Shown here: positions 8,820 through 25,083 of the stretch, in pieces
Numbering within the stretch: the first letter of the stretch is position 1
Layout: each line of letters opens with the position of its first letter
Assembly: GCF_003086695.1 (NCBI RefSeq)
Contig: NZ_CP025999.1
Span: 2,335,680-2,399,679 of the forward strand
DNA: 64,000 bases
Reading direction: 5' to 3'
DNA from: Stenotrophomonas sp. SAU14A_NAIMI4_8
GTDB taxonomy: Bacteria; Pseudomonadota; Gammaproteobacteria; Xanthomonadales; Xanthomonadaceae
Program-made: the position numbers and the translations under genes
Notes under the pieces: generated by a model
Told to the model about the DNA's origin: nothing
The model's input: the letters and a program-made list of their open reading frames with translations, nothing else
Databases searched by the model: none

Positions 8820-8858
8820 GAAGCCACCGCACGCCTACGGTGCTTCAATTCCGGACCG

Positions 8859-8893
8859 GTCCTAATTCAGCGAACGGCCGCAACACCTAGCAT
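8859..8893 (+). promoter_or_regulatory. GTCC-N23-CCTAGCAT adhesin-type promoter, copy 1
   Basis: GTCC at 8859-8862 lies within the palindrome GGACCGGTCC. Exactly 23 nt follow, then CCTAGCAT (8886-8893), whose TAGCAT fits a TAnnnT -10 element. The start codon of the secreted protein is 31 nt downstream, with a good ribosome site at 8914-8918. The same layout occurs before both trimeric autotransporters and the fimbrial operon. Confidence 0.6.
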
Positions 8894-8923
8894 CGCCGCT
8901 GACTCTTGCTTCCGGAGGCACCC

Positions 8924-9535
8924 ATGCGTGCCCAACCTCGGCGCTGCGCACTGCTTGCGCTGGCCTGCAGCGCGGCATTGCTCGTGACCGCACACCTCGC
9001 TTCCGATGCTGATCCCACGCCCATCGTGCGCGCCGCACTGCAGCGTGACGACCTGCTGTGCCTGGGGCTCACACAATGGCCGCTCGATGTCGTCCAGGAA
9101 GGCCCACAGGCCCGCCAGGCGGCCGCACTGGCTGCGCTTGGATTGCTGCTTTCCGAAGAGATGGAGCTGGATCCATTGGCGGACGGCCATCGGGTCATGG
9201 GTATCCGCTATGTTCCAACGGACGCTGCCACCCCATATCTGCATACGCGCAGCATCGAACAACCCACGCTGATGGGCACCGAGGCGCGCGCCCTGCAGGA
9301 CATCTGCTGGGGCCGCAAGGCGTTGGATGCCGTCACCGAGTGGACAACGACCACGCCGCCGTTCGCGCGCGGTCGCGCGGTGTACAGCTACCACCTTGAA
9401 CTGGCGCCGTGGGCTACGCACCCCCGTGTGCTTGAAGCGTTCCCCGGTATTGGCCACGCACGATCCCAGGCCTCACACCCAGCGATTCTGTACCTGCAGC
9501 AGGACAGTCGCGGCTGGCGCGCCGTGCCCGAATAA
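8924..9535 (+). CDS. secreted or periplasmic hypothetical protein
   Basis: About 203 residues. ATG 8924 follows GGAGG with ideal spacing. An arginine-rich n-region and the hydrophobic stretch ALLALACSAALLVTAHLAS form a signal peptide or N-terminal anchor. The mature part has two cysteines (LLCLGL and DICWG), a conserved-looking central run on substrate or partner unknown, and no family motif I recognise. It is followed by a strong terminator. Its promoter carries the same box as the adhesin genes, so it is probably co-regulated with them and could be an accessory surface or matrix protein. That role is inference. Confidence 0.75.
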   Translation: MRAQPRRCALLALACSAALLVTAHLASDADPTPIVRAALQRDDLLCLGLTQWPLDVVQEGPQARQAAALAALGLLLSEEMELDPLADGHRVMGIRYVPTDAATPYLHTRSIEQPTLMGTEARALQDICWGRKALDAVTEWTTTTPPFARGRAVYSYHLELAPWATHPRVLEAFPGIGHARSQASHPAILYLQQDSRGWRAVPE

Positions 9536-9555
9536 GCCACACAGCGCATGCACCG

Positions 9556-9595
9556 AAACGCAGAACAGCGCCCGAGGGCGCTGTTCTGCGTTTTT
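9556..9595. terminator. intrinsic terminator between convergent genes
   Basis: A GC-rich stem of about 15 bp (CGCAGAACAGCGCCC pairing with GGGCGCTGTTCTGCG) with a very short loop is followed by TTTTT on the plus strand. On the minus strand the tract is weaker. It sits 20 nt after the secreted-protein gene and 18 nt from the end of the convergent adhesin gene, so it may serve both. Confidence 0.85.
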
Positions 9596-9612
9596 CCTCA
9601 ATGTGTCTGGAC

Positions 9613-12600
9613 TCAGTCGAACGCCATGCCAAAGCCAATGTTGAACAACGCTTGGTCACCCCGCGACATGGCCACACCGGCATTGAGGTTGAATCGACCG
9701 GACCGGCTCCAGCGCGACACACCCAGCGCGAAGGCCGATTCCCCCCGGTAGGTCGCCGTGCCCAGGTTCAGTGTCACTTTCCCCGGCAGGTTAGGCGTGA
9801 CCTGCACCAGCGCCGCCGAGGCAGCGATACCGCGATTGATCTGTCGCGACATATTCGACGCCTGTGCGCCAATGGCCTGCTCCATCGCTTCAACGCGCTG
9901 GTCGGTGTAACGATTCACCGACGCCATCTGCTCCTGCAGCTGCGCCACGTTGACCGCGTCGGTATCGGCGCTGCCAGCGGCAACATGGGCAATCTGGCGC
10001 TCGCCCCCGGCGTGCCCGACCGACACGCTGTCAGCGCGATCGGCGATGGCATCGGAACCGAGCGCCACGCTGTTGTCTGCACTCGCCTGTGCGCCGGAAC
10101 CGGCTGCCACGGCGCCCTGGCCCGTGGCTTCAGCCGGCGCACCATTGGCCACCAGCGCCTCGTTGCCGGTAGCGCCGTAGTACGGAAGATCCGCCCCCGC
10201 ACCACCGCCCGGTTGGCCTTCCAGCACCCCGACACGATCCTGCAGTCCATCCAACTGGCGGCCGATGCCTTCGCCAATGGCCGACAACTGGCCACCATTG
10301 ACCACCTCGCGGCTGCCCAGCTGTACGCGACCGTCGGCGACGTTGGCCAGCACGGTGCCTGCGGCCCCACCGAACATCACCTGGCTGCGATCGCTGCCCG
10401 CCACATAGCCAACCGTCTCCATGACATCACCATTGTCGCCCACCAGCCCCGCCTGCTTCAGCTGGCGCAGATTGATGGCGTCGGTGTCGTCGCTCGCATC
10501 GGCCACGTGGGTGATCTGGCGCTCGGCACCATCACGCCCGATCGATACGGCGTTGGCACGGTCGGCCACCGACCCTGCGCCCAGTGCAATGGAACCGTCC
10601 ACAGAAGCCTGTGCGCCCTGACCCAACGCGATGGCCCCGGCACCTTCAGCCTGCGCAGACGCACCGATGGCCAGCGCCCCACCGCCGCTGATCGAGGCAT
10701 CGTCGCTGCCATCACCACGGCCATCGACCTTCAGATAGCGGCTGTCCTCTGGCTGCGCCATCGACAGGCCGTCCTGCATCTGTGCCAGGGTCACTGCATC
10801 GGTCGCGTCATCGGCAGCCGCCAGGCCCTTCAACTGCCGCGCACCCGTCGACCCTGTCAGGTCGACCACGCTACCGGCACGGCCGGCCGCCACGGCAATG
10901 TCGCCGCTGGCGGCATCCTGGCGTACCAGGCCTGCGTCGCCGTCGTTCCACGCATCGATCTGGCGCTGCGTGTCCAGCACGTCGTCTTCGGTATGGGTGA
11001 CCCGCTGGTCCAACAGCTGCAGCTGCCCGTCCACTGCACCCAGCGCGGAACCCGCATCGTGGAAACGGCTGCCCTGCACGACATAGGTCGGGCCTGTCAC
11101 GATACCGGTGGCCGCGTCCACCTGCGCACCGCCACCGAGGGCGGCGACCGTGGCCTGCAACTGCTGCAGGTTGACCACATCGGTCGCGTCAGTGCCGTTG
11201 GCCACGTTGATCAACTGGCGCGTACCCACAGTGCCGCCGCCAAGGGACAGCACCTGGTCGCGATCCGCAACCGAGCCGGCGCCCAGCGCCACCGCGTTCT
11301 CACCGTTGGCGCGCGCGCCGGCACCGATGGCGACGCTGTCCTGCCCGGCCGCACGCGCGTCGGCACCCACGGCCAGTGAATGTTGACCGCCCGCTGCGGC
11401 CGCACTGCCCAGCGCCGTGCTGCCGGTAGCGCCGGTGGTCGCGGGCGTATCGACATCACCGGCTGCTGCCTGGAAGTAGCGCTGGGCAACCACCATATCG
11501 CTGCCCAGATCGACCAGTCCGGCACGCTGCGCGCGGTCTTCCGCATCCAGTGCGTGCAGTGCGTCACCGGTGCTGTGCACGGTGGTACCCAGCACATTGA
11601 AGTCCGGTGCCCGCAACGTGCCATCTGCAGCCACGCCTGCGCCAGCGCCCAGCGCCGTCGCCACACTGGCCACGGCGGCGTCGGCCTGCGCCTTGTTGAT
11701 GGCCTCGTCGCCGGCGGCCGCATCGGCAACACCGCCCAGACGGCGGGCATCCGCCGTTCCAGCCATGCCAATGGCGGCGCCATCACGATCCGCGCCGACG
11801 GTCAGGTCGGCGCCGGCCGTGGCCTGCTGGACCATGCCGATGGTGCCCTGGCTGACACGCGTGTGCAGATCATTCACCGACACTTCGACGCTGGACAGGC
11901 CGCCGTCCAGCCCGGTGAGCGCGCTGCCGATGCTGGTATGGGTTCCGCCGTGGGCGAGATCGAAGCCGGGGGCGATGACAGTGCCGTCGGCCGACAACGC
12001 ACCACCGGTCGCCTGCAGAAGTCCCTGCAGCTGCTGCACGCTGACCGCGTCATTGTCCTGGGTGCCATCGGCCATGTTCTCGATGCCACGGCGTGCCGTG
12101 GTTGAACCCAGGGCAACCGTGGCGTTGCCGCGGCTGACCGAACCGGCGCCGATGGCAACACTGTTGGCGTGCGTCGCACGGGCACCTGCGCCGATCGCGG
12201 AGGAATACTGCCCGCTGGCCGTCGCTGCACGGCCGAGAGCGATGCCGCGCTCGCCCGTGGCCACCGCCGCTGAACCCAATGCGGTTACCACCGTACCGGC
12301 GCCATTGGCCTGGAAGCCGATCGCGGTCGCGTTCCAGGTGGTGCGGGTGCTGGCGCCCAGCGAGGTCGCGCCGCTGGTACCCGAGCCGTTCTGGCTGTCG
12401 GACGTGGCACCGTAGCCGATCGAGACGGCGTTGGTGCCGGCGGCCAGCGTGTTGCTGCCCAGTGCGATGGCACCGTTGTTGGCGCCATTGCTGGCCGGTC
12501 GTGCAACGGCATTGCTGCCGATGGCAATCATGTTGATACCGTTGACGCTGGCGGCCGTGGCGTTGCTGCCGGCGTTGACCACCAGCAGGCTGTCATCGGT

Positions 12601-12843
12601 TGCGGCCAGCGGCAGGACGCCACGCAGCGCAGTCGGGTCCACGCAGGCCCCCTGCTGCAGTTCGTCCAGCGCATTGCACAGTGCCTGCTGGATTTCGTTG
12701 GCCAGCACGTTCGGAGCAATCATCGCGAGCAGTACGGCGGCAACGCCCGCGCACATGCGACGGCGACGGCCCTGGGCCAGTTCCGAGGCGACGACCCACT
12801 TGCCGGTGGCCGCGTTCCAGACAATGCGATAGATGCAGTTCAT
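9613..12843 (-). CDS. trimeric autotransporter adhesin (YadA/Hia-like) 1
   Basis: About 1076 residues, type Vc secretion. The start is ATG 12843 (CGGAG upstream): it begins with the extended signal peptide region, containing IYRIVWNAA and GKWVVASELA, typical of very large outer-membrane proteins. The head consists of many 14-residue YadA-like repeats (patterns such as AIGSNA and SVAIGAGS), with neck motifs of the type NVANGTDATDVVNLQQL between blocks. The last 90 or so residues are a coiled coil (YTDQRVEAMEQ) and the four-strand YadA anchor ending in FGMAFD. The protein should form a trimeric surface fibre for attachment. The neighbouring gene 13039-16347 is a paralogue. A distinctive promoter box lies at 12908-12942. 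Confidence 0.95.
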   Translation of the reverse strand: MNCIYRIVWNAATGKWVVASELAQGRRRRMCAGVAAVLLAMIAPNVLANEIQQALCNALDELQQGACVDPTALRGVLPLAATDDSLLVVNAGSNATAASVNGINMIAIGSNAVARPASNGANNGAIALGSNTLAAGTNAVSIGYGATSDSQNGSGTSGATSLGASTRTTWNATAIGFQANGAGTVVTALGSAAVATGERGIALGRAATASGQYSSAIGAGARATHANSVAIGAGSVSRGNATVALGSTTARRGIENMADGTQDNDAVSVQQLQGLLQATGGALSADGTVIAPGFDLAHGGTHTSIGSALTGLDGGLSSVEVSVNDLHTRVSQGTIGMVQQATAGADLTVGADRDGAAIGMAGTADARRLGGVADAAAGDEAINKAQADAAVASVATALGAGAGVAADGTLRAPDFNVLGTTVHSTGDALHALDAEDRAQRAGLVDLGSDMVVAQRYFQAAAGDVDTPATTGATGSTALGSAAAAGGQHSLAVGADARAAGQDSVAIGAGARANGENAVALGAGSVADRDQVLSLGGGTVGTRQLINVANGTDATDVVNLQQLQATVAALGGGAQVDAATGIVTGPTYVVQGSRFHDAGSALGAVDGQLQLLDQRVTHTEDDVLDTQRQIDAWNDGDAGLVRQDAASGDIAVAAGRAGSVVDLTGSTGARQLKGLAAADDATDAVTLAQMQDGLSMAQPEDSRYLKVDGRGDGSDDASISGGGALAIGASAQAEGAGAIALGQGAQASVDGSIALGAGSVADRANAVSIGRDGAERQITHVADASDDTDAINLRQLKQAGLVGDNGDVMETVGYVAGSDRSQVMFGGAAGTVLANVADGRVQLGSREVVNGGQLSAIGEGIGRQLDGLQDRVGVLEGQPGGGAGADLPYYGATGNEALVANGAPAEATGQGAVAAGSGAQASADNSVALGSDAIADRADSVSVGHAGGERQIAHVAAGSADTDAVNVAQLQEQMASVNRYTDQRVEAMEQAIGAQASNMSRQINRGIAASAALVQVTPNLPGKVTLNLGTATYRGESAFALGVSRWSRSGRFNLNAGVAMSRGDQALFNIGFGMAFD

Positions 12844-12907
12844 GGTCGTTCTCCGAGGGCGGGACGCCCGTTGGGGGTAGGCAGCAGGTCGTTGCAGCCA
12901 TGACTGG

Positions 12908-12942
12908 ATGCTAGGCAAGCGCCCCCCGCTGGCGTATCGGAC
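12908..12942 (-). promoter_or_regulatory. GTCC-N23-CCTAGCAT promoter, copy 2
   Basis: On the minus strand GTCC (12942-12939), 23 nt, then CCTAGCAT (12915-12908). GTCC is followed by GAT and preceded by TTTAGGCCGC. The predicted transcript would have a leader of about 58 nt before the first trimeric autotransporter. Confidence 0.65.
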
Positions 12943-13000
12943 GCGGCCTAAAGCGCGCCCGGATACACCCGTGGAATGGTTTGTGATTCAGCAGGTTGCG

Positions 13001-13031
13001 GCGGGGTGCGCGCTGAACTCGCGCACCCCGC
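13001..13031. terminator. terminator-like hairpin after adhesin 2
   Basis: A perfect 12-bp stem, GCGGGGTGCGCG with CGCGCACCCCGC around a 7-nt loop, starts 8 nt beyond the stop of the second trimeric autotransporter. There is no T tract on either strand, so termination may need Rho or the hairpin may protect the 3' end. Confidence 0.55.
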
Positions 13032-13038
13032 GCCGGTC

Positions 13039-16000
13039 TCAGTCGCCCAGCACCACGCCGACGCCCATGCGGAAGATCGGCTTGTCGCCGCGCGCCATGG
13101 ACGCGCCACCGTTGACATTGACGCGCCCGTTGTCGCTCCAGCGCGACACGCCCACGCCCATCGCCGTTTCGCTGCGGTAATTGGCCAGGTTGGCGTTGAT
13201 CGTGGTCTTGCCCGGCAGGTACGGCGTCATCGGTGCCAGCGCAGCGGCTGCGGCGATGCCCCGGTTGGCCTGGCGGTTGACCTGGTCCAGGCGCTGCTCC
13301 ATGCCGCTCCAGGCATCCTGCACACGCTCGTCGGCATACGCCTTGGCGTCGTGCACACCCTGTTGCAGCTGGCCCACGTTCACCGCATCGGTGGCCTGCA
13401 CGCCGGCCGCCACGTGGGTGATCTGGCGCACGCCGCCTTCGCGGCCGACCGACACGCTGTTGTCGCGGTCGGCCAACGAACCGGCACCCAGCGCAACGCT
13501 GTTGTCAGCTCGGGCCTCTGCACCGGCACCCGCCGCCACGCTGCCCTGGCCGACGGCCTGGGCCGGGTTGTCACCGGCCTGATCGCCGGGCTGCGGATTC
13601 GCACCGTAGTACGGCGGATTGCCGCCGCTGCCACCGCCGGCATCGCCGGCTTCCAGGGCACCGACGCGGCCATCCAGCTCGCCGATGCGGCCCTGCAGCT
13701 GGTCGCGCAGCGCGGCCAGCTGGCCACCGTTCACGGCCTCGCGGCTGCCTGCACCCACACGACCATCGGCCACGTTGGACAGTACGGTGCCATTGGCGCC
13801 GCCGAAGGTGACCTGTGCACGCTGGCTGCCGGCATCGTAGGTCACCGCATCCAGCATCTGCCCCCCATCGCCGACCAGCCCGGCCGCCTTCAGCTGGCGC
13901 AGGTTCACCGCATCGGTATCCTCGCTGCCATCGGCCACATGGGTGATCTGGCGTTCGGCACCGGCCGCACCGACCGACACGCTGTTGGCGCGATCGGCAA
14001 CGGCGCCCGCGCCCAGCGCCACGCTGTTGTCAGCCTGTGCCACCGCACCCTGGCCCAATGCCACGCTGCCCGCACCATTGGCCTGGGCCGATGCACCTAC
14101 CGCCATCGCGCCCTGCCCGTTGGCCTGCGCATCATCACTGCCATCGCCTGCACCATCCACCCGCACATAGCGGTTGCCGGTGGCGCGAAGGTCATCGACG
14201 GCCGAGGCCAGCTGGCCCAGGTTCACCGCATCATTGGCGTCGGTGCCCGCGGCCACGCCCTTGAGCTGGCGTTCGCCGTCGGTACCGCGCAGGTCCACCA
14301 CGGCGCCACCGGTACCGGCACCGATCGTCACAGCGGCGTCCGCGGCCGCCTGCTGCACCAGGCCGGCTTCGCCATTGCCCAGTTCCACCAGCTGCTGACG
14401 CAACTGGGTGATATCGCCTTCGTTGCGGGTCACGCGGCCGTCGATCACGGTCAGGCCACCATCCACCGAAGACAGCGCATCGCCCACGTTGTCGAAGGTC
14501 TGGCCCTGCACGCTGTACTGCGGGCCGGTCACCGTGCCAGTCGACGCGTTGTGCGCGGCGCCGCCGCCTAGGCCATCGATGACCGGACGCAGCTGCTGCA
14601 CGTTCACCGCATCCGCCGCGTCGGTGCCGTTGGCCACGTTGATGACCTGGCGGGTGCCGTTACCGCCCATGCCCCAGCCAACCGACACGACGTTGTCGCG
14701 GTCTGCTACCGCCTCGGCACCCAGCGCCACCGAATTCTCACCCGTGGCGCGCGCATTCGCACCGAGGGCAATCGCACCGTCACCATTGCTCGCGCGCGCG
14801 CCCCAGCCGATTGCCACGCCGTGTTCAGCGCTGGCGGCGGCACTGGCACCCGCAGCGATGCTGCCCGAACCCGTTGCAGCCGCCTCGTCGGCCACGCCCG
14901 AACCGTCCGCCTTGAAATAGCGGCTGCCTGCATCCAGTGCGTCGCGCAGGTCGGCCAGGTCCTGGCCGGTGCCGCCGACACGGCCGTCCAGCGCCGTCAA
15001 TGCATCGCCCACGTTGCCGTAGTTGCTGCCACCCACGGTGTAGGTGGGTGCACCGATGCGCCCCTGCGCATCGGCAACGCTGCCACCGCCAAGCGCATCG
15101 GCCACCGACGCCGAAGATGCCTGCAGCTGCGCCAGCGTCACGGCTTCGTCGGCCGAGGCGGCATCGGCCACGCCACGGAGGCGACGCGCCCCGGCAGTGC
15201 CACTGAAGTCCACCGCCGCACCGTCGGTGCTGGCGCCCACGGTCAACTCGGCACCCGGTGCCGCCTGCTGCACCAGGCCCACGGTGCCGTTGTCCAGCGA
15301 AGTGCTCAACTGGTTCAGGGTCGTGGTGGTGGTGGTCAGGCCATCGTCCAGCGCTTCCAGCGCGCTGCCAACGGTGGTGTGGGTGCCGCCATGGCCGAGC
15401 ACGTAGCTGGGCGCAGTGATGCTGCCGTTGGCGGCAACGTCGGCGCCGCCGCCCAGCGCCTGCACGCCCGCCCGCAGCTGCTGCACGATCACCGCATCAT
15501 TGGCCTGCGTACCCGCGGCGACATTGACGACCTGGCGGCGCAGCGTGCCGCTGCCGACCGACACCGTATTGGCGCGGTTGGCGACCGACGCACGGCCGAT
15601 CGCCACCGCACCGGCAGCCGTGACCTGCGACGAGCCACCGAGGGCGACGCCGCCTTCGGCGCTGACCGAACTGTTGTCACCCATTGCCACTGCTTCGGAA
15701 GCGCTGCCGCGCGCACCGCGGCCCACGGCCACCGCCCCCGAGCCGCTGGCATTGGTGTTGTAGCCCACGGCCACGCTGTTCCAGCCGCCGGCGTTGGCAT
15801 TGGCGCCCACGGCCAGCGAGCCTGCCGCGCCCTGTGCGTTCTGGCTGTTGGCGCTGGCGCCCATGCCGATGGCCACCGCATTGTTGCCCTGGGTGCTGGC
15901 GTTGGCGCCCATCGCGATGGCGTTGTCGGCGTTGCCGTCCGCATCGGCCAACGCGCGTGCGTTGTTGCCGATGGCGATCGCGCCCACCCCTGCGGCCGTG

Positions 16001-16347
16001 GCGGCGGCACCCGAGCCATTCACCTTCACATACTGGTCGTCGACGGCGGCCTGCACACCGATGGTGCGGGCCTGCGGCGACACCCCGGCGCCAGCGTCGG
16101 CATCGGCATCGGGCGCGACGCAGCGGCCCTGCGCATCGAGCACGCCCGGCTGGCCCTGGGCCAGGACACAGGTGGTGCCGTTGTCCTCGGCCGCCCACAG
16201 CGGCACGGCGAGCGTCAGCAGGCCCAGCGCAGCAAGTGCGCGTGCAGCCCCCTTGGTGCCCTTCTTGCTGCGGCCCGTGGCCAGTTCCGAGGCGACCACC
16301 CACTTGCCGATGGCCGCATTCCAGACAATCCGATAGATGCTGTTCAT
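13039..16347 (-). CDS. trimeric autotransporter adhesin (YadA/Hia-like) 2
   Basis: About 1102 residues. The start at ATG 16347 opens with an ESPR almost identical to that of the first adhesin (one residue differs in each half) although the following signal-peptide core differs. YadA-head repeats (for example AIGMGASANSQN and SVAVGYNTNASG), neck motifs (NVANGTDAADAVNVQQL) and stalk segments alternate through the passenger. The C-terminal anchor (RQANRGIAAAAALAPMTPYLPGK onward) ends in VVLGD. Six or so short neck/stalk modules are repeated within the protein and shared with the paralogue, so recombination between the two genes is plausible. It has its own promoter box at 16422-16456 and a terminator-like hairpin, so the tandem genes appear to be separate transcription units. 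Confidence 0.95.
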   Translation of the reverse strand: MNSIYRIVWNAAIGKWVVASELATGRSKKGTKGAARALAALGLLTLAVPLWAAEDNGTTCVLAQGQPGVLDAQGRCVAPDADADAGAGVSPQARTIGVQAAVDDQYVKVNGSGAAATAAGVGAIAIGNNARALADADGNADNAIAMGANASTQGNNAVAIGMGASANSQNAQGAAGSLAVGANANAGGWNSVAVGYNTNASGSGAVAVGRGARGSASEAVAMGDNSSVSAEGGVALGGSSQVTAAGAVAIGRASVANRANTVSVGSGTLRRQVVNVAAGTQANDAVIVQQLRAGVQALGGGADVAANGSITAPSYVLGHGGTHTTVGSALEALDDGLTTTTTTLNQLSTSLDNGTVGLVQQAAPGAELTVGASTDGAAVDFSGTAGARRLRGVADAASADEAVTLAQLQASSASVADALGGGSVADAQGRIGAPTYTVGGSNYGNVGDALTALDGRVGGTGQDLADLRDALDAGSRYFKADGSGVADEAAATGSGSIAAGASAAASAEHGVAIGWGARASNGDGAIALGANARATGENSVALGAEAVADRDNVVSVGWGMGGNGTRQVINVANGTDAADAVNVQQLRPVIDGLGGGAAHNASTGTVTGPQYSVQGQTFDNVGDALSSVDGGLTVIDGRVTRNEGDITQLRQQLVELGNGEAGLVQQAAADAAVTIGAGTGGAVVDLRGTDGERQLKGVAAGTDANDAVNLGQLASAVDDLRATGNRYVRVDGAGDGSDDAQANGQGAMAVGASAQANGAGSVALGQGAVAQADNSVALGAGAVADRANSVSVGAAGAERQITHVADGSEDTDAVNLRQLKAAGLVGDGGQMLDAVTYDAGSQRAQVTFGGANGTVLSNVADGRVGAGSREAVNGGQLAALRDQLQGRIGELDGRVGALEAGDAGGGSGGNPPYYGANPQPGDQAGDNPAQAVGQGSVAAGAGAEARADNSVALGAGSLADRDNSVSVGREGGVRQITHVAAGVQATDAVNVGQLQQGVHDAKAYADERVQDAWSGMEQRLDQVNRQANRGIAAAAALAPMTPYLPGKTTINANLANYRSETAMGVGVSRWSDNGRVNVNGGASMARGDKPIFRMGVGVVLGD

Positions 16348-16421
16348 GAAATTCTCCGTAGGCGAAGTGCCTGGTTGGTCGAACGGGTCGAAAGGCGGCC
16401 AGGGCCGCGTCCACGGGGAAA

Positions 16422-16456
16422 ATCGTAGGAAAGACAAGGCCCGGGCCGAATCGGAC
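16422..16456 (-). promoter_or_regulatory. GTCC-N23-CCTACGAT promoter, copy 3
   Basis: On the minus strand GTCC (16456-16453), 23 nt, then CCTACGAT (16429-16422), in which TACGAT fits TAnnnT. The upstream half reads AATTAGGCCCG before GTCCGATT. It precedes the second trimeric autotransporter with a leader of about 68 nt. Confidence 0.65.
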
Positions 16457-16517
16457 CGGGCCTAATTGCGGTGTGGCGTGGCAAACGCGTGGGCGGCGTT
16501 CAGCGCAATGAGGAGGG

Positions 16518-17006
16518 CTAGTTGTAGGTCATCGAGACCGTGATCGGCCGGCTGACCGTACCCGCGGACACTGCGGCCGCACTCTGTACGAACCGCGCGC
16601 GGAACGCATGAGTGCCGGCCGCAGTGGTCATCTGCGTCCATCCTCCCGGCCGCAGGCGTGCCCCGCTGCTGGTGCGCTGCAGCTCAATGCCGATGCCGGC
16701 CACGCCCTGGAACAGGGTCGCATCGTTGACGTCGGCACTGCCGTCGAAGTGCAGCCCGACGCGGGTGATCAACGGATCGCACTGGCTGACCACCACGTTG
16801 ATGTTCTGGAACGGCGTAGTGAACGCACCGGTGAACTGGGTCGACTGGTAGGTGCCAAGGTCGACGTCGGCCACGGCGATCCGGCATACCCCGGGCAGGA
16901 TGGTGCCGGTGACGTTGAAATTGGTGGTGGTGGCGGTCTGTGCCTGCGCGGCAGCAGCGCACAGCAACAGGCCGGACATCAGCAACAGGGAGCGGAAACG
17001 ACGCAT
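16518..17006 (-). CDS. minor fimbrial subunit 3
   Basis: A 162-residue fimbrial-type protein, exported through a signal peptide (MRRFRSLLLMSGLLLCAAAAQA). The mature protein has the pilin pattern: an early cysteine (GVCRIAV), a second cysteine (VSQCDPL) that should form the subunit disulfide, and a terminal beta strand ending SAGTVSRPITVSMTYN for donor-strand exchange. It is the last gene of the seven-gene operon, 9 nt after the preceding subunit. It is clearly paralogous to the gene at 17016-17495, suggesting a local duplication. Probably a tip or adaptor subunit. Confidence 0.85.
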   Translation of the reverse strand: MRRFRSLLLMSGLLLCAAAAQAQTATTTNFNVTGTILPGVCRIAVADVDLGTYQSTQFTGAFTTPFQNINVVVSQCDPLITRVGLHFDGSADVNDATLFQGVAGIGIELQRTSSGARLRPGGWTQMTTAAGTHAFRARFVQSAAAVSAGTVSRPITVSMTYN

Positions 17007-17015
17007 GGCGGGCCC

Positions 17016-17495
17016 TCAGTTGTAGGACAGCGAGACGGTGATCGGCCGGGTCACCCGGCCCGCCCCCACGCTGGCGGCAGACTGCAGGAAGCGCGCACGG
17101 AACGGATAGCTGCCGGCTGCGGTCACGTACTGCGTGCGGCTTCCCGGCGGAATCGGCACGGGCGTGCTGCCAACCACACGCACCAGCTCGATGCCCACCC
17201 CCTTCACGCCCTGGAACAGCTGAGCGTTGTCGGCGTCGGCGCTGCCGTCGAAGGTCATCGCCACGCGCGTCACCAGCGGGTCGCAATCGCTGACCGTGCC
17301 GTTGAAATCCACGTAGGGCGTGCCAAAGCTTCCGGTGAACAGGGTCGCCGAATGCGAGCCCAGATCGACATCGGGGAACGAAACGCGGCAGGCACCGGGC
17401 AGGATTTCGCCGGAGACGGAAAAGGGTTGGCTGTCCTGTGCCTGCACGTTCGCAGTGGCCAGGGCCAGCATCAGCACAACGGTCGAACGATGCAT
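17016..17495 (-). CDS. minor fimbrial subunit 2
   Basis: A 159-residue paralogue of the downstream subunit. The signal peptide ends at NVQA. The two pilin cysteines are in GACRVSF and VSDCDPL, and the C-terminus AGRVTRPITVSLSYN fits the donor-accepting last strand. Alignment with the neighbour is nearly gap-free in the central portion (TLFQG, VGIEL). It lies 9 nt from the genes on each side, all on the minus strand. It is probably assembled at the fimbrial tip together with the two other minor subunits. Confidence 0.85.
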   Translation of the reverse strand: MHRSTVVLMLALATANVQAQDSQPFSVSGEILPGACRVSFPDVDLGSHSATLFTGSFGTPYVDFNGTVSDCDPLVTRVAMTFDGSADADNAQLFQGVKGVGIELVRVVGSTPVPIPPGSRTQYVTAAGSYPFRARFLQSAASVGAGRVTRPITVSLSYN

Positions 17496-17504
17496 GGTGG
17501 TTTC

Positions 17505-17993
17505 TCAGTTGTAGGTGACCTGGACGGTCACCGGGGTACGAAGGGTGCCGGCCGATACCGTGCCGGTACGGATCAGCTGCGCGTAGAGCAGATAGCCACC
17601 GGCCGCCGAGCCGCTGGTGTACCAGTCGAATCCAGGCTGGTTGGGCGCCAGCGTCTGCCGCCCCGATGTGTACAGATGCACGGCCAGGCCGCGCACGCCG
17701 CCGTTGGCGGGCACCGCAAAGTAGCGCGCATCACTGCTGTCGGCATTGCCGGCCAGACGCACATGCAGCACCCGCAGGTCGGCGGCGCAGCTGCTGCGGT
17801 TGAGTACGAAGCTGACCGCGGGCGAGCTGGGGTTGCTGCTGAAGTACGGCGCCTCGAAGGTGCCCACGTCGACATCGGCCACGCTGAACTGGCAGGTGCC
17901 CGGCTGGAAGCGTCCGCTGAAGCGCACGGTCAGGTCCGCTGCCTGCAGCGGGAGCGCGGACAGCAGCAGCGCGATGGCGAGCAGCAGGCGCAT
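17505..17993 (-). CDS. minor fimbrial subunit 1
   Basis: About 162 residues. The ATG at 17993 lies one base after the stop of the adhesin gene, so translation is coupled. The signal peptide (MRLLLAIALLLSALPLQA) precedes a pilin-type domain with cysteines in GTCQFSV and SSCAADL and a C-terminal strand LRTPVTVQVTYN. More divergent than the two downstream subunits. The pattern of one two-domain adhesin and three minor subunits suggests a composite tip. Confidence 0.85.
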   Translation of the reverse strand: MRLLLAIALLLSALPLQAADLTVRFSGRFQPGTCQFSVADVDVGTFEAPYFSSNPSSPAVSFVLNRSSCAADLRVLHVRLAGNADSSDARYFAVPANGGVRGLAVHLYTSGRQTLAPNQPGFDWYTSGSAAGGYLLYAQLIRTGTVSAGTLRTPVTVQVTYN

Positions 17994-17994
17994 C

Positions 17995-19068
17995 TCAGTT
18001 GTACTCCAGGGTGATCGTGGCAGCACCGTTGGCCTGCCCCGACGATGCGGCGGCATTCAGCCGGTAGTAGCGTGCCCGCAGCATCAGCGTGTACTGCGCG
18101 TTGTTGACCTCGGTCAGTGCCAGGCCGGAATCGCGCATGGCATTGAAGCCCACCGAGTCCTGGGTCTGCGTACCGATCTGGATTCCGATGCCGGTTGCGG
18201 TCAAGTTGACCCCGTCGTCCTGCAGCGCCATGACCGATTGGGTGCGATCGGCCACGGCCGTGACCGGATCGACCCGGAAGCGGATGCTGTTGTCGACCCG
18301 TCCGTTGGCGGTCTGCACGGTCCCGGTGGTCAGGTGGCCGCGGTAGCGGCCGAAGAACGCGGGGCAGTTGCGCAGCACCACCGGCACGTTCACCCAGCCG
18401 GTGCCGCTGCCGACCGTGGGAATCTCGCTCATCTGATGCGTTCCCAGGTCGATCGGCACGTCACTGGTCGAGCAGGTGCGCGAGACGATGCTCAGGTTGC
18501 CCTGCACGCGGCCGCTCCACAGCAGCACGTTGCGGTTGACCCCGGTCATGCGGTACTCGAACTGCGGCAGGTTGGCGCCGGTCACGGTTCCCGCACTGAT
18601 GGGGCCGATCTTGATCAGGCTAACGTCGTAGGACTGCATCGGCCAGTACTGGAAGACAGTGGGTGGCTGCACCTGGGTGTCACCTTCGGTGACGATGGGA
18701 AAGCCGCTGCCGTTGAACCACACTGCCACGCCGACGCCCGGCACGTTGGTTTCATACACCGTGCCGTAGCGCGGGTGCACGTAGCCGGACGCGCGGTAAG
18801 GCAGCGAGGTGTACTGGCGGATGCGGTCAAGCCGTCCTGCGGTGCAGTTGACCAGATTGCTGGGGCCGGCATAGTAGGTCGCCCGGAAGATCTCGGTCCC
18901 CACCGACACGTCGGGGCCGACCGTGATCGAGCCGTTGAGATTGGCGATGTTGACCAGCGCGCTGTTGCCATCGGCCATCCGGCAGTTCTGCGCGGACGCC
19001 GAGCTGCTGGCCCAGGCGAGCGCCAGGACTGCCAGCAGCAGGCGAATCACGAATTGAAAGGCGTTCAC
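17995..19068 (-). CDS. two-domain fimbrial tip adhesin
   Basis: A 357-residue protein with a signal peptide ending SSASA. Its length is twice that of a pilin, as in FimH-like tip adhesins: an N-terminal putative receptor-binding domain (residues about 27-190, with cysteines in NCRMADG and VNCTAGR) and a C-terminal pilin domain (cysteines in RTCSTSD and RNCPAFF; final strand AATITLEYN). The GTG start overlaps the usher stop (GTGA). The ligand is unknown; the first domain does not obviously match FimH or MrkD. Confidence 0.85.
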   Translation of the reverse strand: MNAFQFVIRLLLAVLALAWASSSASAQNCRMADGNSALVNIANLNGSITVGPDVSVGTEIFRATYYAGPSNLVNCTAGRLDRIRQYTSLPYRASGYVHPRYGTVYETNVPGVGVAVWFNGSGFPIVTEGDTQVQPPTVFQYWPMQSYDVSLIKIGPISAGTVTGANLPQFEYRMTGVNRNVLLWSGRVQGNLSIVSRTCSTSDVPIDLGTHQMSEIPTVGSGTGWVNVPVVLRNCPAFFGRYRGHLTTGTVQTANGRVDNSIRFRVDPVTAVADRTQSVMALQDDGVNLTATGIGIQIGTQTQDSVGFNAMRDSGLALTEVNNAQYTLMLRARYYRLNAAASSGQANGAATITLEYN

Positions 19069-21743
19069 GGAGCGTTCTCCAGCGCGGCCAGCGGTGGCGG
19101 CGCAGCGGGGTGCGAATTCGCGGTGGGCGTCGGTCGCAGGCAGCGTCCGTCAATCACGGTGTAGCCATCGGTGGAACGGGCAGCGGGAATCTGCACCTGC
19201 AGCACGCACTGCTGGTCCGCGCCGGTGCCCCACTGCACCTGCACCGGTCCGGAGTCCTGCAGGCCGCTCAACAGCAGGCGACTGCCCTGCCCGACCATGC
19301 CGACGTTGCTGCCGGCCGCATCGGTGGCCTCGGCGCCGAACGGCAGCGGCCGGCCGTCCTCGGTGCGCGCATCGACCATCAGGCCGTGGCTGCTGCGGGT
19401 GCTGAAATCCAGCCGCACCATCGCACCGGCACGCGGCGCGACGCTGCGTGCAGTCTCCTGCAGTTCCACATTGAAACCGGTGCCCTTCGGATCGATCGAG
19501 ATGGTGTTCAGCTGGTAAGGCGTCAGGAACGGCACCACCGCATAGCCTCGCTTGTCCAGCCGCGCGCCTCCCCCGTTCTCGATGCGCGCGCCCGTCGCAC
19601 CGGCCGCGTGTACCAACGCCACCGTGTCACCCAGCGGCGGCGACAGGGTCAGTCCGTCGCCGTGCAGCACCGCGCCGCCGGAGGCGCCCAGGCCCAGCTG
19701 CGTGTAGCTGCTGCCGTTGCTGATGCTGGCCGCCCACTGTCCGCGTGCGCCGCGATAGCCGGTATTGAGATCAACACTGTTGCTGCCCGCGATGCGCGAC
19801 AGGGTCGCGCCATAACTGAAACGGTCATCCAGCGAGGAGATTCCGTTGGTCGACAGCTGGGTGGCAGGTTCGCCGTTGCGGCTGCGGGTATGCATCAGGT
19901 TGCCCAGCGGGGCCCGTGCCGAGCGGCCCAGCGGCAGCGACACCATCAGCATCAGTCGATTGTCCACGCGGGCGTCCTGCGCACGTGCCACTGGCAGATC
20001 CGCACCCGGCACGCGGTCCTGCAGGTAGCCGCGGCCGAAATCGATCGAATCGCGGGTGCGCTGGAAATTCAGGCTGTAGCTCAGCGATTTCCACTGGTTG
20101 CTGTAGCCGATGCTCAGATCCAACTGGCGACCCGGCGCGTTCCAGAAATCGCGACGGGTTCCGATGACGAACAGCTGTCCGCCGCGCTCGCCCAGCTGCT
20201 GGTTCATGCTCAGGTCCATGCGGTTACGCTGCCGCGCCACGCTGTCGGCGTCCTGGTCGCGGGCGCGGGCATCGCGCAGCGAGGCCCAGTCGCGCAGGCT
20301 CACGTAGTCGCGCGTGGCATAGCGGTACGCGGCCACGGCGAAGCTGGTGCCGGTGCGCACCACGTTACGGTTGTAGGCGAGCCGGAAGCTGCTGCCTGAC
20401 ATCACCGGCAGGCCCTGCACGGCGGTGCGCGCCAGCGAGACATCGGCCGCCAGGGCGCCCCACGCGGTATTGAAAGCGGCACCGGCCACCGCCGTGCGGT
20501 AGTCTTCGCCGGCCGACACGCCGCCGTAGGCGCTGAGCGCATTGTTGAGGCCTCGCTGGTACTGCAGCTGCAGCAGCCCCGGGGCATCGCTCAGGCCGTT
20601 CTCATCAACCTGGCCCAGGCCCGCGCTCCAACGCGACTGGCCCGGTCGCAGCAGCTGCGGTACCGCCGAATACGGCACGCTGAAGCGGCGCGAGCGGCCA
20701 TCGGCCTCGCGCACTTCCACTTCCAGATCGCCGGCGTAGCCGGTCGGGTACAGATCGGTCAGCTCGAACGGGCCGGGTGCCACGCTGGCCTCGTGCAGCA
20801 CCGCGCCGCGCTGGCGCACGATCACCCGCGCGTTGCTTTCGGCCACACCGCGCACGACCGGCGCGAAACCGCGCTGCGACTGCGGCAGCATCCGGTCATC
20901 GCTGCCCAGCAGTACGCCACGAAGGCGCACGCTCTCGAACAGGTCACCGGGGGTCGCGGTATCGCCCACGGTCAGCTGCGCCTTCCACGGCACGACGTCA
21001 TGCTGCAGGTAAGCGGCACTGGAGCGGTAGCGTTGCGGCTGGCTGCCGCCGAGCGTCAGCGCACCCTGGTGCACCAGCTGCCAGCCAGCCACACGACCGC
21101 TGGCGTTGAGGCCGACGAAACCCGAATAGCGCGCACGACTGCCGTTGTTGTAGTGGTAGGCATTGGCGTTGTAGCCCACCGCCAGCGCCGGAATGCCCGC
21201 ATCCCATTGGCTGGGATCGACATAGCCGCGTGCCTCATTGCGCAGGTACAGCTGGGGCACCTGCAGATCCAGGGTCTGTGTGCCAGCGTCGAAGACCGCC
21301 GTGGCGCCCGGAACCAGATCGCCCAGCGGCTCACAGTATTCGCCCTGCGGCCACGGCCGCAGCGGTGCCTGAGCCGGGTCGGCCAGCAGCCGCGAGGGTG
21401 CGATGCCATAACCCTGCAGGCGTTCGGCGTCCAGGCACAGGCGCGAGCTGCCATCCACCTCGCGATAGACGATATCGGTGCGTGCCTGCCATTGGCCATT
21501 GAGGCGGATGTCCCCACGGTAGGTTCCTGGCGCCACGTAGTCCGCCTGGGTGAAGCGCTCCAGGTCCAGCCGCGCCGAAGCGCCGACCGGCAGGAATGCG
21601 GCATCGAAGGACACTTCATCGTCTGCCGTCGACGCGGACGACGTCGTTGCACGGGCGAACAGGATGGCCGCCACCAGTATCGGCAGCCGGGCACGCAGCG
21701 GGCGGCAGGCGCCGTTGCCCGGCGCCCGGTTCGGGGCGTTCAT
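19065..21743 (-). CDS. fimbrial usher (FimD/PapC family)
   Basis: An 892-residue outer-membrane usher. After the signal peptide come the N-terminal chaperone-subunit binding domain (FDAAFLPVG..LDLERF), a 24-strand beta barrel with the plug segment (typical usher motifs such as GPFELTDLYP, DLEVEVREADG), and two C-terminal domains including GSRLLLSGLQDSGPVQVQWG and the final cysteine pair region QQCVLQVQ. Length and order match full ushers. It takes chaperone-subunit complexes from the periplasm and extrudes the fimbria. A gap of 18 nt separates it from the chaperone gene, and its stop overlaps the adhesin start. Confidence 0.95.
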   Translation of the reverse strand: MNAPNRAPGNGACRPLRARLPILVAAILFARATTSSASTADDEVSFDAAFLPVGASARLDLERFTQADYVAPGTYRGDIRLNGQWQARTDIVYREVDGSSRLCLDAERLQGYGIAPSRLLADPAQAPLRPWPQGEYCEPLGDLVPGATAVFDAGTQTLDLQVPQLYLRNEARGYVDPSQWDAGIPALAVGYNANAYHYNNGSRARYSGFVGLNASGRVAGWQLVHQGALTLGGSQPQRYRSSAAYLQHDVVPWKAQLTVGDTATPGDLFESVRLRGVLLGSDDRMLPQSQRGFAPVVRGVAESNARVIVRQRGAVLHEASVAPGPFELTDLYPTGYAGDLEVEVREADGRSRRFSVPYSAVPQLLRPGQSRWSAGLGQVDENGLSDAPGLLQLQYQRGLNNALSAYGGVSAGEDYRTAVAGAAFNTAWGALAADVSLARTAVQGLPVMSGSSFRLAYNRNVVRTGTSFAVAAYRYATRDYVSLRDWASLRDARARDQDADSVARQRNRMDLSMNQQLGERGGQLFVIGTRRDFWNAPGRQLDLSIGYSNQWKSLSYSLNFQRTRDSIDFGRGYLQDRVPGADLPVARAQDARVDNRLMLMVSLPLGRSARAPLGNLMHTRSRNGEPATQLSTNGISSLDDRFSYGATLSRIAGSNSVDLNTGYRGARGQWAASISNGSSYTQLGLGASGGAVLHGDGLTLSPPLGDTVALVHAAGATGARIENGGGARLDKRGYAVVPFLTPYQLNTISIDPKGTGFNVELQETARSVAPRAGAMVRLDFSTRSSHGLMVDARTEDGRPLPFGAEATDAAGSNVGMVGQGSRLLLSGLQDSGPVQVQWGTGADQQCVLQVQIPAARSTDGYTVIDGRCLRPTPTANSHPAAPPPLAALENAP

Positions 21744-21761
21744 CAGGAGGTTCTCCGGGGA

Positions 21762-22502
21762 TCAGGGCTGCAGGGCCACCTGGGTCGGCACCAGCGCACC
21801 AAAATCATTGATCACGGTGACCGCGCCTTTCAGTTCACCCGGCGGACGTCCGCTCACCCCGTCGAGCAGGAACTCGGCCTGCGCGAACGGCGCGACCATG
21901 CCGCCTCCCTGGCTGCCCAGCTCCTTGCCTGCGACAAGCAGGCCGACGCTGGCGAAATTGACGTAGTACGGGGTCGGGTTATCGGCCCGCAGCAGCAGCC
22001 CCTTGGGCCCGGACTGCAACGACCACCGCAGCTTCTGGTGCGCCAGCACCGGCTCGCCCGTCAGGTTCGGCGGACGGTAGAAGACCTTGATGCGGGTGCG
22101 GAAGGCGAATTGCAGGATGTTGGCGCCGTTGCTGCCGGTCTTGGGCGGAATCTCCAGCATGTTGAGCCAGTACAGCGTTTCGCGGTCAGCGGCCAGCGCT
22201 GCACCGGTGAACATGATGCGCGCGGTCTGCTGCTTCTTCGGGTCCAGCCGGAACACCGGAGGCGCCACGGCGAACGGGGCACGGGCGGTATCGGGCGTCG
22301 ACTGGTCGTCGCCATCATCCAGCCACACCTGGACCAGCGCTGCGCGCTCGCCCTCGTTCATGAATTTGAGGGTGACTTCCTTGTCCTGCGCGGGATAGAC
22401 CACGCGGGTGCCACCAATCACCACCGATGCGTCGGCAGCCTGGGCGAACAAAGTGCCAATGGCGAGCGCGCCGGCACACAGCATGCGGTTGAAGGAAAGC
22501 AT
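21762..22502 (-). CDS. periplasmic fimbrial chaperone
   Basis: A 246-residue PapD/FimC-type chaperone with a signal peptide ending in AADA. The G1 edge strand GANILQFAFRTRIKVFYRP, the conserved Arg-Val-Val-Tyr-Pro (TRVVYPAQDKEVTLKF) and the motif LYWLNMLEIPPK are characteristic. It donates a strand to unfolded subunits in the periplasm and delivers them to the usher. It follows the major subunit by about 64 nt, a gap long enough for a processing hairpin that would favour high major-subunit expression, although I see no decisive structure. Confidence 0.95.
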   Translation of the reverse strand: MLSFNRMLCAGALAIGTLFAQAADASVVIGGTRVVYPAQDKEVTLKFMNEGERAALVQVWLDDGDDQSTPDTARAPFAVAPPVFRLDPKKQQTARIMFTGAALAADRETLYWLNMLEIPPKTGSNGANILQFAFRTRIKVFYRPPNLTGEPVLAHQKLRWSLQSGPKGLLLRADNPTPYYVNFASVGLLVAGKELGSQGGGMVAPFAQAEFLLDGVSGRPPGELKGAVTVINDFGALVPTQVALQP

Positions 22503-22566
22503 GGATCACCTCATGGATGAGGCCGGCCACAGGGCCGCCGGCATGCGCCGACGGCCCCGCGCGGCA

Positions 22567-23130
22567 TCAGTTGTAGACAACCTTGTAGTTGACGTACGAC
22601 TGCACGAAGCCGGGCGCAGCCGCGCCATTGACGGCGACGTACTGGCTGGCCATGTCAATCACGGCGGTGTTGTTGGCGATGGTCACCGGATCGGTCTTGA
22701 AGGACGGATCGCGCAGGTCCACCACGGCGTTCTTGTACAGCACCTGGATCTGGGTGTTGACGGCCGGCGCATTGGCTTCCTGGTTGCGCAGGTTGCCGTT
22801 GCCGGCGTCCACCTGGCCCGCAGTCGGGTCGAAGTACAGCTCGGCGATCTTGCCGTTCTGGCAGGTACCCTGGCCCGGGCCGCCAATGACCAGCTGGAAC
22901 GGGTGCAGACCGGCGATGTCACCGGCGGCTGCCAGCTGGTTGGCCTGGACCGCGTCCATCGGCACGGTGATGTTGGTGGTGCCGATGGCACCTGCACCGC
23001 CGGAAATCGTGCAGGTCAGGTCGGTCACTTCGCCGGTGAACTCAATGATGCCCGAGCCGTAGGACTGGGCATTGGCGGCCGCAGCGGCCAGCAGCAGGGT
23101 TGCAGCGGAAGCAATCGGGAGGAGCTTCAT
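22567..23130 (-). CDS. major fimbrial subunit
   Basis: About 187 residues with a signal peptide ending in AAANA at the ATG 23130. The pilin has cysteines in DLTCTISGG and GTCQNGK and ends SYVNYKVVYN. It is first in the operon, followed by chaperone and usher, as in SMF-1/Cup-like chaperone-usher systems of Stenotrophomonas and Pseudomonas. I cannot tell from the sequence alone whether it is the orthologue of S. maltophilia SMF-1, so I give no symbol. The promoter box at 23278-23312 implies a leader of about 140 nt. Confidence 0.9.
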   Translation of the reverse strand: MKLLPIASAATLLLAAAAANAQSYGSGIIEFTGEVTDLTCTISGGAGAIGTTNITVPMDAVQANQLAAAGDIAGLHPFQLVIGGPGQGTCQNGKIAELYFDPTAGQVDAGNGNLRNQEANAPAVNTQIQVLYKNAVVDLRDPSFKTDPVTIANNTAVIDMASQYVAVNGAAAPGFVQSYVNYKVVYN

Positions 23131-23277
23131 GGTGTTGGATTCTTCTTCACAGGTGTGATCCGCGCGAGGCGGAGGAATGGCCCCGCCGCCGGGGAGAGCG
23201 GCGGGGCCGGGAACGGGCGGGACACCTGGGGAATAAGCGTCCTTCCCGGCAGGCCGGTTCATTGGCCTACGGGAGGA

Positions 23278-23312
23278 ATGCTAGGAATCTAAGTCGATGG
23301 CCTCCATCGGAC
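23278..23312 (-). promoter_or_regulatory. GTCC-N23-CCTAGCAT promoter, copy 4 (fimbrial operon)
   Basis: On the minus strand GTCC (23312-23309) followed by GATGG, then 23 nt in total to CCTAGCAT (23285-23278). This is an exact match to the spacing of the promoters of both trimeric adhesins. It precedes the seven-gene fimbrial operon. Confidence 0.65.
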
Positions 23313-23358
23313 CCGGCCGAGATTTCGGCCACGGGCGCAGACCGCGCCTTACCCGGGA

Positions 23359-23547
23359 TCACACGTCATCGCCATCGTCCTCGGCGGGCGCCTGCAGGTG
23401 CCAATGACGGCGTAGCTGGCTGCGGCGCTTCGGCGAGGCAAACAGGTAGTGGTTCAACAGTTCGAGGAAGTGCGCCTGCGCCGCTGCCGGCAGCCGGGTG
23501 AAGTGCAGCAGCAGGGTAGTCAATCGGGGGTCGTCTCGAACGGGCAC
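23359..23547 (-). CDS. possible small protein between fimbriae and regulators
   Basis: A 62-residue reading frame starting at GTG 23547. It reads as a short basic helix-rich protein (HFTRLPAAAQAHFLELLNHYLF) with an acidic tail (AEDDGDDV). The start lacks a clear ribosome site. What supports it is the fifth, weaker copy of the adhesin-type box about 30 nt upstream. I do not recognise the family; a small regulator of the fimbrial switch is one possibility but is not shown by the sequence. Confidence 0.45.
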   Translation of the reverse strand: MPVRDDPRLTTLLLHFTRLPAAAQAHFLELLNHYLFASPKRRSQLRRHWHLQAPAEDDGDDV

Positions 23548-23577
23548 GTCATCACCGCAGCAAGGGGTCCGTCTCCG

Positions 23578-23611
23578 AGCCTAGACATGGACGATGCCGG
23601 GTCCATCGGAC
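23578..23611 (-). promoter_or_regulatory. weaker GTCC-N22-TCTAGGCT box, copy 5
   Basis: On the minus strand GTCC (23611-23608), 22 nt, then TCTAGGCT (23585-23578). The upstream part (GACCGGTCCGATGG) is as good as in the other copies, but the spacer is one base shorter and the -10-like octamer differs at four positions, although TAGGCT still fits TAnnnT. It lies just beyond the stop of the response regulator and points at the 62-residue frame. Confidence 0.4.
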
Positions 23612-23621
23612 CGGTCTTCAA

Positions 23622-24426: not shown

Positions 24427-25083
24427 ATGTCCCATCCCGTCATACGCGTTGCCATCGCCGACGATCATCCGGTCATCCGCATGGGCATCGAAGCCGCCAT
24501 CGACGAAGTACCTACCCTGTCCTGCATCGGCGCGGTGGGCGATTCCTCTGCGCTGGTCACGTTGCTCGAGCAGACCGCCTGCGACGTGGTGGTGACCGAC
24601 TACGCGATGCCAGGCGGCGCCTTCGGTGACGGGTTGCAGCTGCTTGACCATCTGCGCACGCACTTTCCGGACCTGCGTCTGATCGTGATGACCGGCCTGG
24701 ACCAGCCGGCGATGATCCAGGCGCTGCACGCCAGCGGCATCGACCACATCCTGAGCAAGGCCGACGACACCAGCCACGTGCCGGCGGCGATTGCGGCCGC
24801 TTGGGCCAACCGTCGCTACCTGTCGCCGTCGATCGCCCAGCTGCTCCCCACACGCAGGGCGCCACGTGCCACTGCGGCGCTTTCGCCGCGCGAGCACGAG
24901 GTGCTGGCGTTGTTCGTGTCGGGGCTTAGCATCAATGAAATCGCAGCCCGGCTGGACCGCCGCAAGCAGACGATCAGTACCCAGAAGACCGCAGGAATGG
25001 CCAAGCTCGGCATCGACAAGGATGCCGATCTGTTCAAGTTCGCCAGCGAGCTGGGGCTGCGCACCGCCAAGCCGGATACTTGA
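24427..25083 (+). CDS. NarL/RcsB-like response regulator B
   Basis: A 218-residue paralogue of regulator A. Receiver: AIADDHPVIRMG, phosphoacceptor Asp58 in VVVTDYAMPGG, and Lys in ILSKADD. Helix-turn-helix: LSPREHEVLALFVSGLSINEIAARLDRRKQTISTQKTAGMAKLG. ATG 24427 was chosen over the longer frame because the receiver begins at residue 6. The gene converges on the sensor-kinase operon, with only 14 nt between the two stops. One of the two paralogues may antagonise the other, as in the Roc systems; this is inference. Confidence 0.92.
   Translation: MSHPVIRVAIADDHPVIRMGIEAAIDEVPTLSCIGAVGDSSALVTLLEQTACDVVVTDYAMPGGAFGDGLQLLDHLRTHFPDLRLIVMTGLDQPAMIQALHASGIDHILSKADDTSHVPAAIAAAWANRRYLSPSIAQLLPTRRAPRATAALSPREHEVLALFVSGLSINEIAARLDRRKQTISTQKTAGMAKLGIDKDADLFKFASELGLRTAKPDT

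Follow-up and report, generated by a model that had tools for sequence, protein, structure and literature searches.

A conserved dyad-promoter box, predicted to be bound by an RcsB-like regulator, upstream of fimbrial, adhesin and sensor-kinase genes in Stenotrophomonas

The adhesin-kinase cluster and its boxes

In a 64,000-nucleotide stretch of Stenotrophomonas sp. SAU14A_NAIMI4_8 (NCBI RefSeq: NZ_CP025999.1, positions 2,335,680 to 2,399,679, forward strand; hereinafter the window, with positions counted from its first nucleotide), we analyzed a box that recurs upstream of a chaperone-usher fimbrial operon and of genes for two trimeric autotransporter adhesins (TAAs), a secreted protein, a small conserved protein and a sensor kinase, in a cluster that also encodes two RcsB-like response regulators (RR-A and RR-B). 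Alignment of the window copies with those of relatives resolved the upstream block of the box into a 6-2-6 near-palindrome (TMGGAC-NN-GTCCKA), placed 22–23 nucleotides (spacings N22 and N23) ahead of a CCTAG-type −10-like element. The GTCC is invariant in 16/16 aligned sites (4 from the window and 12 from relatives), and the left arm is looser. An earlier note on this DNA had seen a half-site before GTCC; the half-site is indeed there, and GTCC is more precisely the right arm of the dyad. The four exact copies of GTCC-N23-CCTA[GC][CG]AT that it listed are the 4 matches in the window, and its view that such shared spacing is unlikely to arise by chance is upheld by 100 dinucleotide shuffles of the window, which gave a mean of 0.07 matches and at most 1, versus 4.

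These four copies, all detected both by the pattern and by the profile R1 described below, are box 1 (8851..8893, + strand; a dyad with right arm GTCCTA, then N23 and CCTAGCAT), upstream of the secreted-protein gene (8924..9535, +); box 2 (12908..12950, −; TAGGCC-GC-GTCCGA, N23, CCTAGCAT), upstream of TAA1 (9613..12843, −); box 3 (16422..16464, −; TAGGCC-CG-GTCCGA, N23, CCTACGAT), upstream of TAA2 (13039..16347, −); and box 4 (23278..23320, −; TCGGCC-GG-GTCCGA, N23, CCTAGCAT), upstream of the fimbrial operon (16518..23130, −). Box 5 (23578..23619, −; a dyad with right arm GTCCGA, then N22 and TCTAGGCT), upstream of the small conserved protein, had been listed as a weaker fifth copy with N22 at 23611 on the minus strand; the copy is real but the opposite of weak, being the best conserved of all, with GTCCGAT in 17/17 loci. 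A sixth copy, missed by the earlier note, lies at 31295 on the minus strand (box 6, 31262..31303; TCAGCC-GT-GTCCTA, N22, CCGATAAC), upstream of the sensor-kinase gene HK2 (start at 31185), and its −10 element is not CCTAG-like. The spacers between box and −10 element are dissimilar among the window copies.

RR-A (23622..24311, −) and the divergently transcribed RR-B (24427..25083, +) both combine Response_reg and GerE domains. The best PDB match of RR-A is RcsB (E 1.8e-39), and the RcsB equivalog (NF008098) is the best NCBIfam profile for RR-A and RR-B alike, its 155.4 and 154.3 bits lying below the 235-bit cut-off. They are followed by two sensor kinases: HK1 (25098..28454, −), an unorthodox kinase with the architecture HisKA-HATPase-REC-HPt, and HK2 (28501..31185, −), with HisKA-HATPase, in which no REC or HPt was found. 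The RcsC equivalog (NF008099) is the best profile for HK1 (396.7 bits) and scores 244.1 bits for HK2, both below its 920-bit cut-off; for HK2 it comes next to TorS (259 bits), and both are below cut-off.

Between RR-A and the fimbrial operon lies the gene for the small conserved protein (23359..23547, −), of 62 amino acids from a GTG start inferred from relatives; database records use a TTG start that gives 54 amino acids. It is predicted as three helices (predicted local distance difference test score, pLDDT, 82.9). Its relatives are annotated as hypothetical where named, the window member has no NCBIfam match, and Pfam returned weak DUF3106 matches in 11/43 family members (best E 1.1e-4). 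Neither a Foldseek structure search (one match, E 9.7) nor a comparison of the family profile with PDB (best E 0.31) gave anything usable. The protein is a member of an undescribed family with a predicted three-helix structure.

As for the remaining genes, TAA1, whose start was read from the sequence, and TAA2 each possess ESPR, YadA_head, YadA_stalk and YadA_anchor domains. The fimbrial operon was delineated from domain matches, usher and fimA profiles, sequence and synteny; all on the minus strand, it comprises fimA (22567-23130; fimA profile and a sub-threshold PF16970 FimA match), the usher (19065-21743; usher profile), the fimbrial adhesin (17995-19068; PF00419) and, called from sequence and synteny, the chaperone (21762-22502) and three further fimbrial subunits (16518-18002). 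The secreted protein, with a signal-peptide-like start by reading, matched no Pfam or NCBIfam family and is lineage-specific: its N-terminal 93 amino acids were found in 1/91 genus genomes, its own. As no relative of this segment was found in the other 90, there is no orthologous promoter with which to compare box 1, a putative copy called from the sequence. Directly upstream of box 1 and the secreted-protein gene is a sensor kinase and FixJ-like regulator pair, by reading (6846-8763; regulator 8074-8763). The window also carries many GTAG-ended hairpin repeats with TCGAGC..GCTCGA arms (5629, 8765, 31551, 33771-33963, 38400-38664, 47460-47574, 50213-50356, 52423-52507 and 55407-55454), one of them just beyond each end of the adhesin-kinase cluster; these resemble the SMAG repeats of S. 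maltophilia.

Rarity, phase and spread of the box

Across the whole 4,479,100-base genome, GTCC-N22..24-CCTASSAT has 6 matches, namely the 4 window copies, all with N23, and 2 others (N24 and N22) inside open frames of 781 and 402 codons. The scan proposed in the earlier note thus finds the full box upstream of genes and the other matches in open frames, and the pattern is not as frequent within genes as upstream of them. A profile of 16 sites (R1; 4 from the window and 12 from relatives) likewise placed the four window copies on top in the genome, with E-values (rough for all profiles used here) of 1.3e-7 to 3.5e-4; the next three matches (E 0.04, 0.68 and 2.4) fall inside long open frames, by reading. 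Two held-out profiles recovered window copies from sites of other species: R2, made of 8 such sites, gave boxes 2 (12942, −) and 4 (23312, −) the top two ranks in the genome, in that order (E 0.014 and 0.107), with a third match at genome position 2216300 (E 0.65), and R3, built from 13 promoters of the small protein and the kinase in other species and from no window site, ranked box 4 first and box 6 second.

Both the abundance of the dyad near RR-A and its phase relative to the −10 element depart from chance. By itself, the dyad was counted 23 times in the 20 stretches (18-20 kb each) that surround RR-A relatives, versus 2 occurrences for a reversed-pattern control and a mean of 1.35 (maximum 4) in 20 second-order Markov simulations of these stretches. 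Among 91 GTCC[GT]AT words from the RR-A stretches and the window cluster, CTA[GC] follows at N22 in 11 and at N23 in 12, with at most 1 case at each other spacing from 8 to 44. When 26 dyads were picked without regard to the −10 element, NCTANNNT was found at N23 in 15, at N22 in 1 and nowhere else; four more had GTAGCAT at N23, and six had neither element. Many of the sites in these controls are mutual orthologues and, therefore, not independent.

The box is strongly associated with RR-A across genomes. RR-A relatives of at least 52% identity define a set of 17 RR-A genomes among 91 of the genus, and every one of the 17 close RR-A loci has a divergent RR-B relative (the window being read directly). 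R1 matches (E<=0.05) are present in 16/17 RR-A genomes versus 3/74 others (Fisher p 6e-14; kinship is ignored in this and the following tests). Six RR-A genomes contributed no training site; after dropping one of these (G068) as a near-copy of the window genome, 4/5 still had R1 matches (p 1e-4), and on discounting the matches in G011 and G050, which by reading have no promoter role, the comparison stands at 3/5 versus 2/74 (p 0.0012).

The 31 R1 matches comprise the 16 training sites, 3 near-identical orthologues in G068 and 12 others. Of the latter, 6 are ahead of fimbrial or TAA genes, 1 is in an HK2 promoter (G027) and 1 precedes the small protein (G023). The six adhesin sites are those of fimA at a new place (G062), a TAA (G027) and fimbrial genes in G048, G071, G089 and G069. 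In G048 an N23 box (G048:C7:21332), with a different RcsB-like regulator about 1.3 kb away, precedes a PF00419 fimbrial gene. In G071 the dyad is present with no −10 element at N23. The G089 site is on a different contig from RR-A, and its first gene has no Pfam match, the fimbrial call resting on a fimA-like second gene; in G069, where the FimA match is below cut-off, 1.2 Mb separate the site from RR-A. A further box, found by pattern in G052, precedes a FimA/chaperone operon. The chaperones and ushers of boxed operons at six loci (L046-L048, L050, L051 and L053) have just 34-42% and 37-40% identity, respectively, to those of the window, and these operons are, therefore, probably not orthologues of the window operon. 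The comparison of upstream regions in other Stenotrophomonas that the earlier note had suggested bears it out: the box tracks RR-A and, with its phase unchanged, precedes one more TAA as well as fimbrial operons that are not orthologous. We infer that the box and regulator may have outlasted the fimbrial genes that they serve.

Near RR-A, tblastn detects a relative of the small protein in 16/22 loci, and a motif search adds L040, L041 and L049. In its promoters GTCCGAT is identical in 17/17 loci, namely the window plus 16 close ones; the spacing is N22 in 14 of them and N23 in 3, and the identity of the spacer between box and −10 element is 0.30. This footprint omits 4 of 20 RR-A loci (L052, L054, L055 and L056), which have a distant RR-A and in which the small protein was not found or lies in another orientation. 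In 17/17 loci this box stands directly behind RR-A. On the coding strand ahead of the kinase gene, a GTCC[GT]AT box is present in 6/8 sequences read: the window, S. sepilia (L057), S. chelatiphaga (L058), S. pennii (L059), Stenotrophomonas sp. BIGb0135 (L065) and Dyella (L060). Most −10 elements of these kinase promoters are not CCTAG-like; Dyella L060 has N23-CCTAGCCT.

In the family, R1 has matches in 8/297 genomes, of which 6 lie outside the genus. Of the three matches in genus g45, two keep N23 exactly, ahead of a lipoprotein-like frame by reading, and the third does not; the other three outside the genus were not judged to be promoters. At L135 and L136 (G134 and G335, in another genus of the family) the dyad is followed by exact N23-CCTAGCAT before a lipoprotein-like frame, and one copy in another genus is a perfect palindrome (TCGGAC-GC-GTCCGA), again N23 before CCTAGCAT. 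Dyella sp. RRB7 (L060), from another family of the order, encodes both regulators, a pair of kinases and the small protein and has several GTCC[GT]A boxes, showing that the system is not confined to Stenotrophomonas.

The predicted regulon and the identity of the binder

Provided that TANNNT (−12 to −7) is the −10 element, the center of the dyad would lie at −42.5 (N23) or −41.5 (N22). A center near −42 is a usual position of class II activators. Where the earlier note placed an activator box overlapping the −35 position, a class II dyad centered at about −42 fits better than a −35 substitute. We consider it probable that the box serves as a conserved module of operator and promoter to which the adjacent RR-A is predicted to bind and through which it would activate the fimbriae, TAAs, small protein and sensor-kinase operon as a single surface-attachment regulon. 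The surface-adhesion regulon posited earlier is supported, with its target set widened to the small conserved protein and the sensor kinase. Mechanistically, HK1 and HK2 would pass phosphate to RR-A by way of the HPt domain that HK1 carries; RR-A, dimerized with itself or with RR-B, would bind the dyad and, with no good −35 element present, contact RNA polymerase as a class II activator. The box before HK2 would close a positive loop, and the three-helix protein, as the most constantly boxed target, might tune or limit the response. A bolder and distinctly doubtful extension is that RR-A and RR-B pair as a heterodimer on a dyad that is itself asymmetric, with near-invariant right and variable left arms, in a genus-wide switch wherein the 22-nucleotide phase marks the system's own loop (small protein and kinase) and the 23-nucleotide phase the adhesins, the three-helix protein is a feedback partner, and the box has outlived the replacement of adhesins.

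Several observations weigh against this reading. The genome holds 7 RR-A relatives at E<=1e-20, and the sequence leaves both RR-A and RR-B as candidate binders. G048, with its box beside a different RcsB-like regulator, lacks a close RR-A. In G042 and G043, which have both regulators together with the small protein, no GTCC[GT]A box in phase was found in the stretches read, and G088 has no R1 match, only a small-protein box. No small protein was found at L052 and L054, where RR-A is distant, and no coding-strand box before the HK2 gene in L061 and Dyella L063 (2/8 sequences). Three of the 12 new R1 matches (G000, G050 and G011) have no promoter role, by reading, and one more (L114; G062:C40:243313) is an N23 box that lies about 144 kb from RR-A and precedes a gene for a signal peptidase (Peptidase_S26). 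In the whole genome at E<=10, R2 did not recover boxes 1 and 3, nor R3 boxes 1, 2, 3 and 5. Finally, a genus-wide search for CTAGG-N8..32-dyad gave 12 matches in 8/91 genomes, 10 of them at the N23 phase, versus 9 for the backward control; the count alone is no evidence, and it is the phase that is informative.

The most serious competitor keeps the box and the regulon and changes the wiring, with RR-B or an unlinked RcsB-like or FixJ-like regulator as the true binder and RR-A acting elsewhere. RR-B is as RcsB-like as RR-A (154 versus 155 bits) and is divergent to it in 17/17 close loci; the RcsB-likeness for which the earlier note singled out this pair is evident, by best profile though below cut-off, and either is a candidate binder. 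The G048 box and the FixJ-like regulator (8074-8763) adjoining box 1 also favor such a rewiring. RcsB makes its base contacts through K180 and S184 (PMC5829831). Across the window and 16 close loci aligned to RcsB, the S184 position is T in both regulators, and the K180 position is always Q in RR-B and K in 10 and Q in 7 for RR-A, a difference that speaks only weakly against RR-B, as RR-A also has Q in 7/17. We also entertained this K/Q difference as a cause of box variants and rejected it, as boxes persist with Q. With the small-protein box directly behind RR-A in all 17 loci, we regard a binder other than RR-A as unlikely.

Two further explanations dispense with the activator. Two conserved blocks at a near-constant distance could be the elements of an alternative sigma factor promoter. 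Sigma-70-family elements are spaced by about 16-19 nucleotides, and the gap of 25 nucleotides from GTCC to TAGCAT lies beyond this; moreover, the distance can be either 22 or 23, the upstream block has a dyad symmetry that is complete in one copy (TCGGACGCGTCCGA), and box copies track a NarL/FixJ-type regulator, making this reading very improbable. Scarcely credible is the idea that the likeness reflects duplication of upstream DNA, a dispersed repeat or chance and has no meaning for regulation: TAA1 is a paralogue of TAA2 and the window is rich in TCGAGC..GCTCGA hairpin repeats, but the full box shows no dispersal through the genome, and the spacers diverge both among the window copies and in the small-protein promoters (0.30 identity) while GTCCGAT is invariant.

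Comparison with known phosphorelay-fimbria systems

We found no description of the box, of the small protein or of a regulator of these Stenotrophomonas fimbriae and TAAs in the literature open to search, which excludes subscription papers. The predicted regulon of RR-A supplies an operator that can be tested, along with a candidate phosphorelay and regulon, for 17 species (one genome each), in which regulator and box stay put while the adjoining fimbrial operons are swapped; it also names a small-protein family whose function can now be sought.

Within the genus, the S. maltophilia SMF-1 fimbriae and the regulators BfmAK, FsnR and BsmR share the theme of surface attachment and its regulation, but we found none described as an RcsB-like phosphorelay with this box (PMC11089167, PMC5498567). 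The Escherichia coli Rcs phosphorelay provides RcsB, the nearest solved relative of RR-A, although neither RR-A nor RR-B reaches the cut-off of the RcsB equivalog. The half-sites of its RcsAB box (TTAGGAA and TCTAAGA) resemble the arms found here in position, TAGG core and 6-2-6 geometry, and differ in the inner bases, which here are GGAC/GTCC (PMC5829831).

The nearest known systems are the RcsCB/PvrSR-CupD and Roc systems of Pseudomonas aeruginosa, each with a phosphorelay, an RcsB-like activator and neighboring chaperone-usher fimbriae. Of the features of these types, the window has an RcsB-like REC-HTH (helix-turn-helix) regulator beside a chaperone-usher operon and an unorthodox sensor with REC and HPt (HK1). 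An antagonistic EAL response regulator was not among them: RR-A and RR-B are REC+GerE proteins, and there was no EAL match among the window proteins scanned, a subset of those encoded. Like the present cluster, RcsCB/PvrSR-CupD of strain PA14 combines an RcsB-like HTH regulator, an unorthodox HPt sensor, a second sensor and an adjoining chaperone-usher operon; there, unlike here, the second regulator is the EAL protein PvrR, in place of the HTH regulator RR-B, and PvrS has a receiver, of which none was found in HK2 (PMC2696094, PMC3842833). The Roc network (RocS/RocA/RocR) is alike in a sensor network driving cup fimbriae together with other surface or secretion genes, and includes several RocA regulators of the RcsB type whose in vitro motifs closely resemble one another; it differs in that RocR is an EAL protein, and we met no small-protein partner there (PMC12051241). 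Unlike in RcsCB/PvrSR, the Stenotrophomonas box also marks TAAs, the small protein and the kinase gene, and holds a strict 22/23-nucleotide phase in many species. The system differs from the known kind in its second HTH regulator instead of an EAL one, its target set, its conserved small protein and its strict two-phase box.

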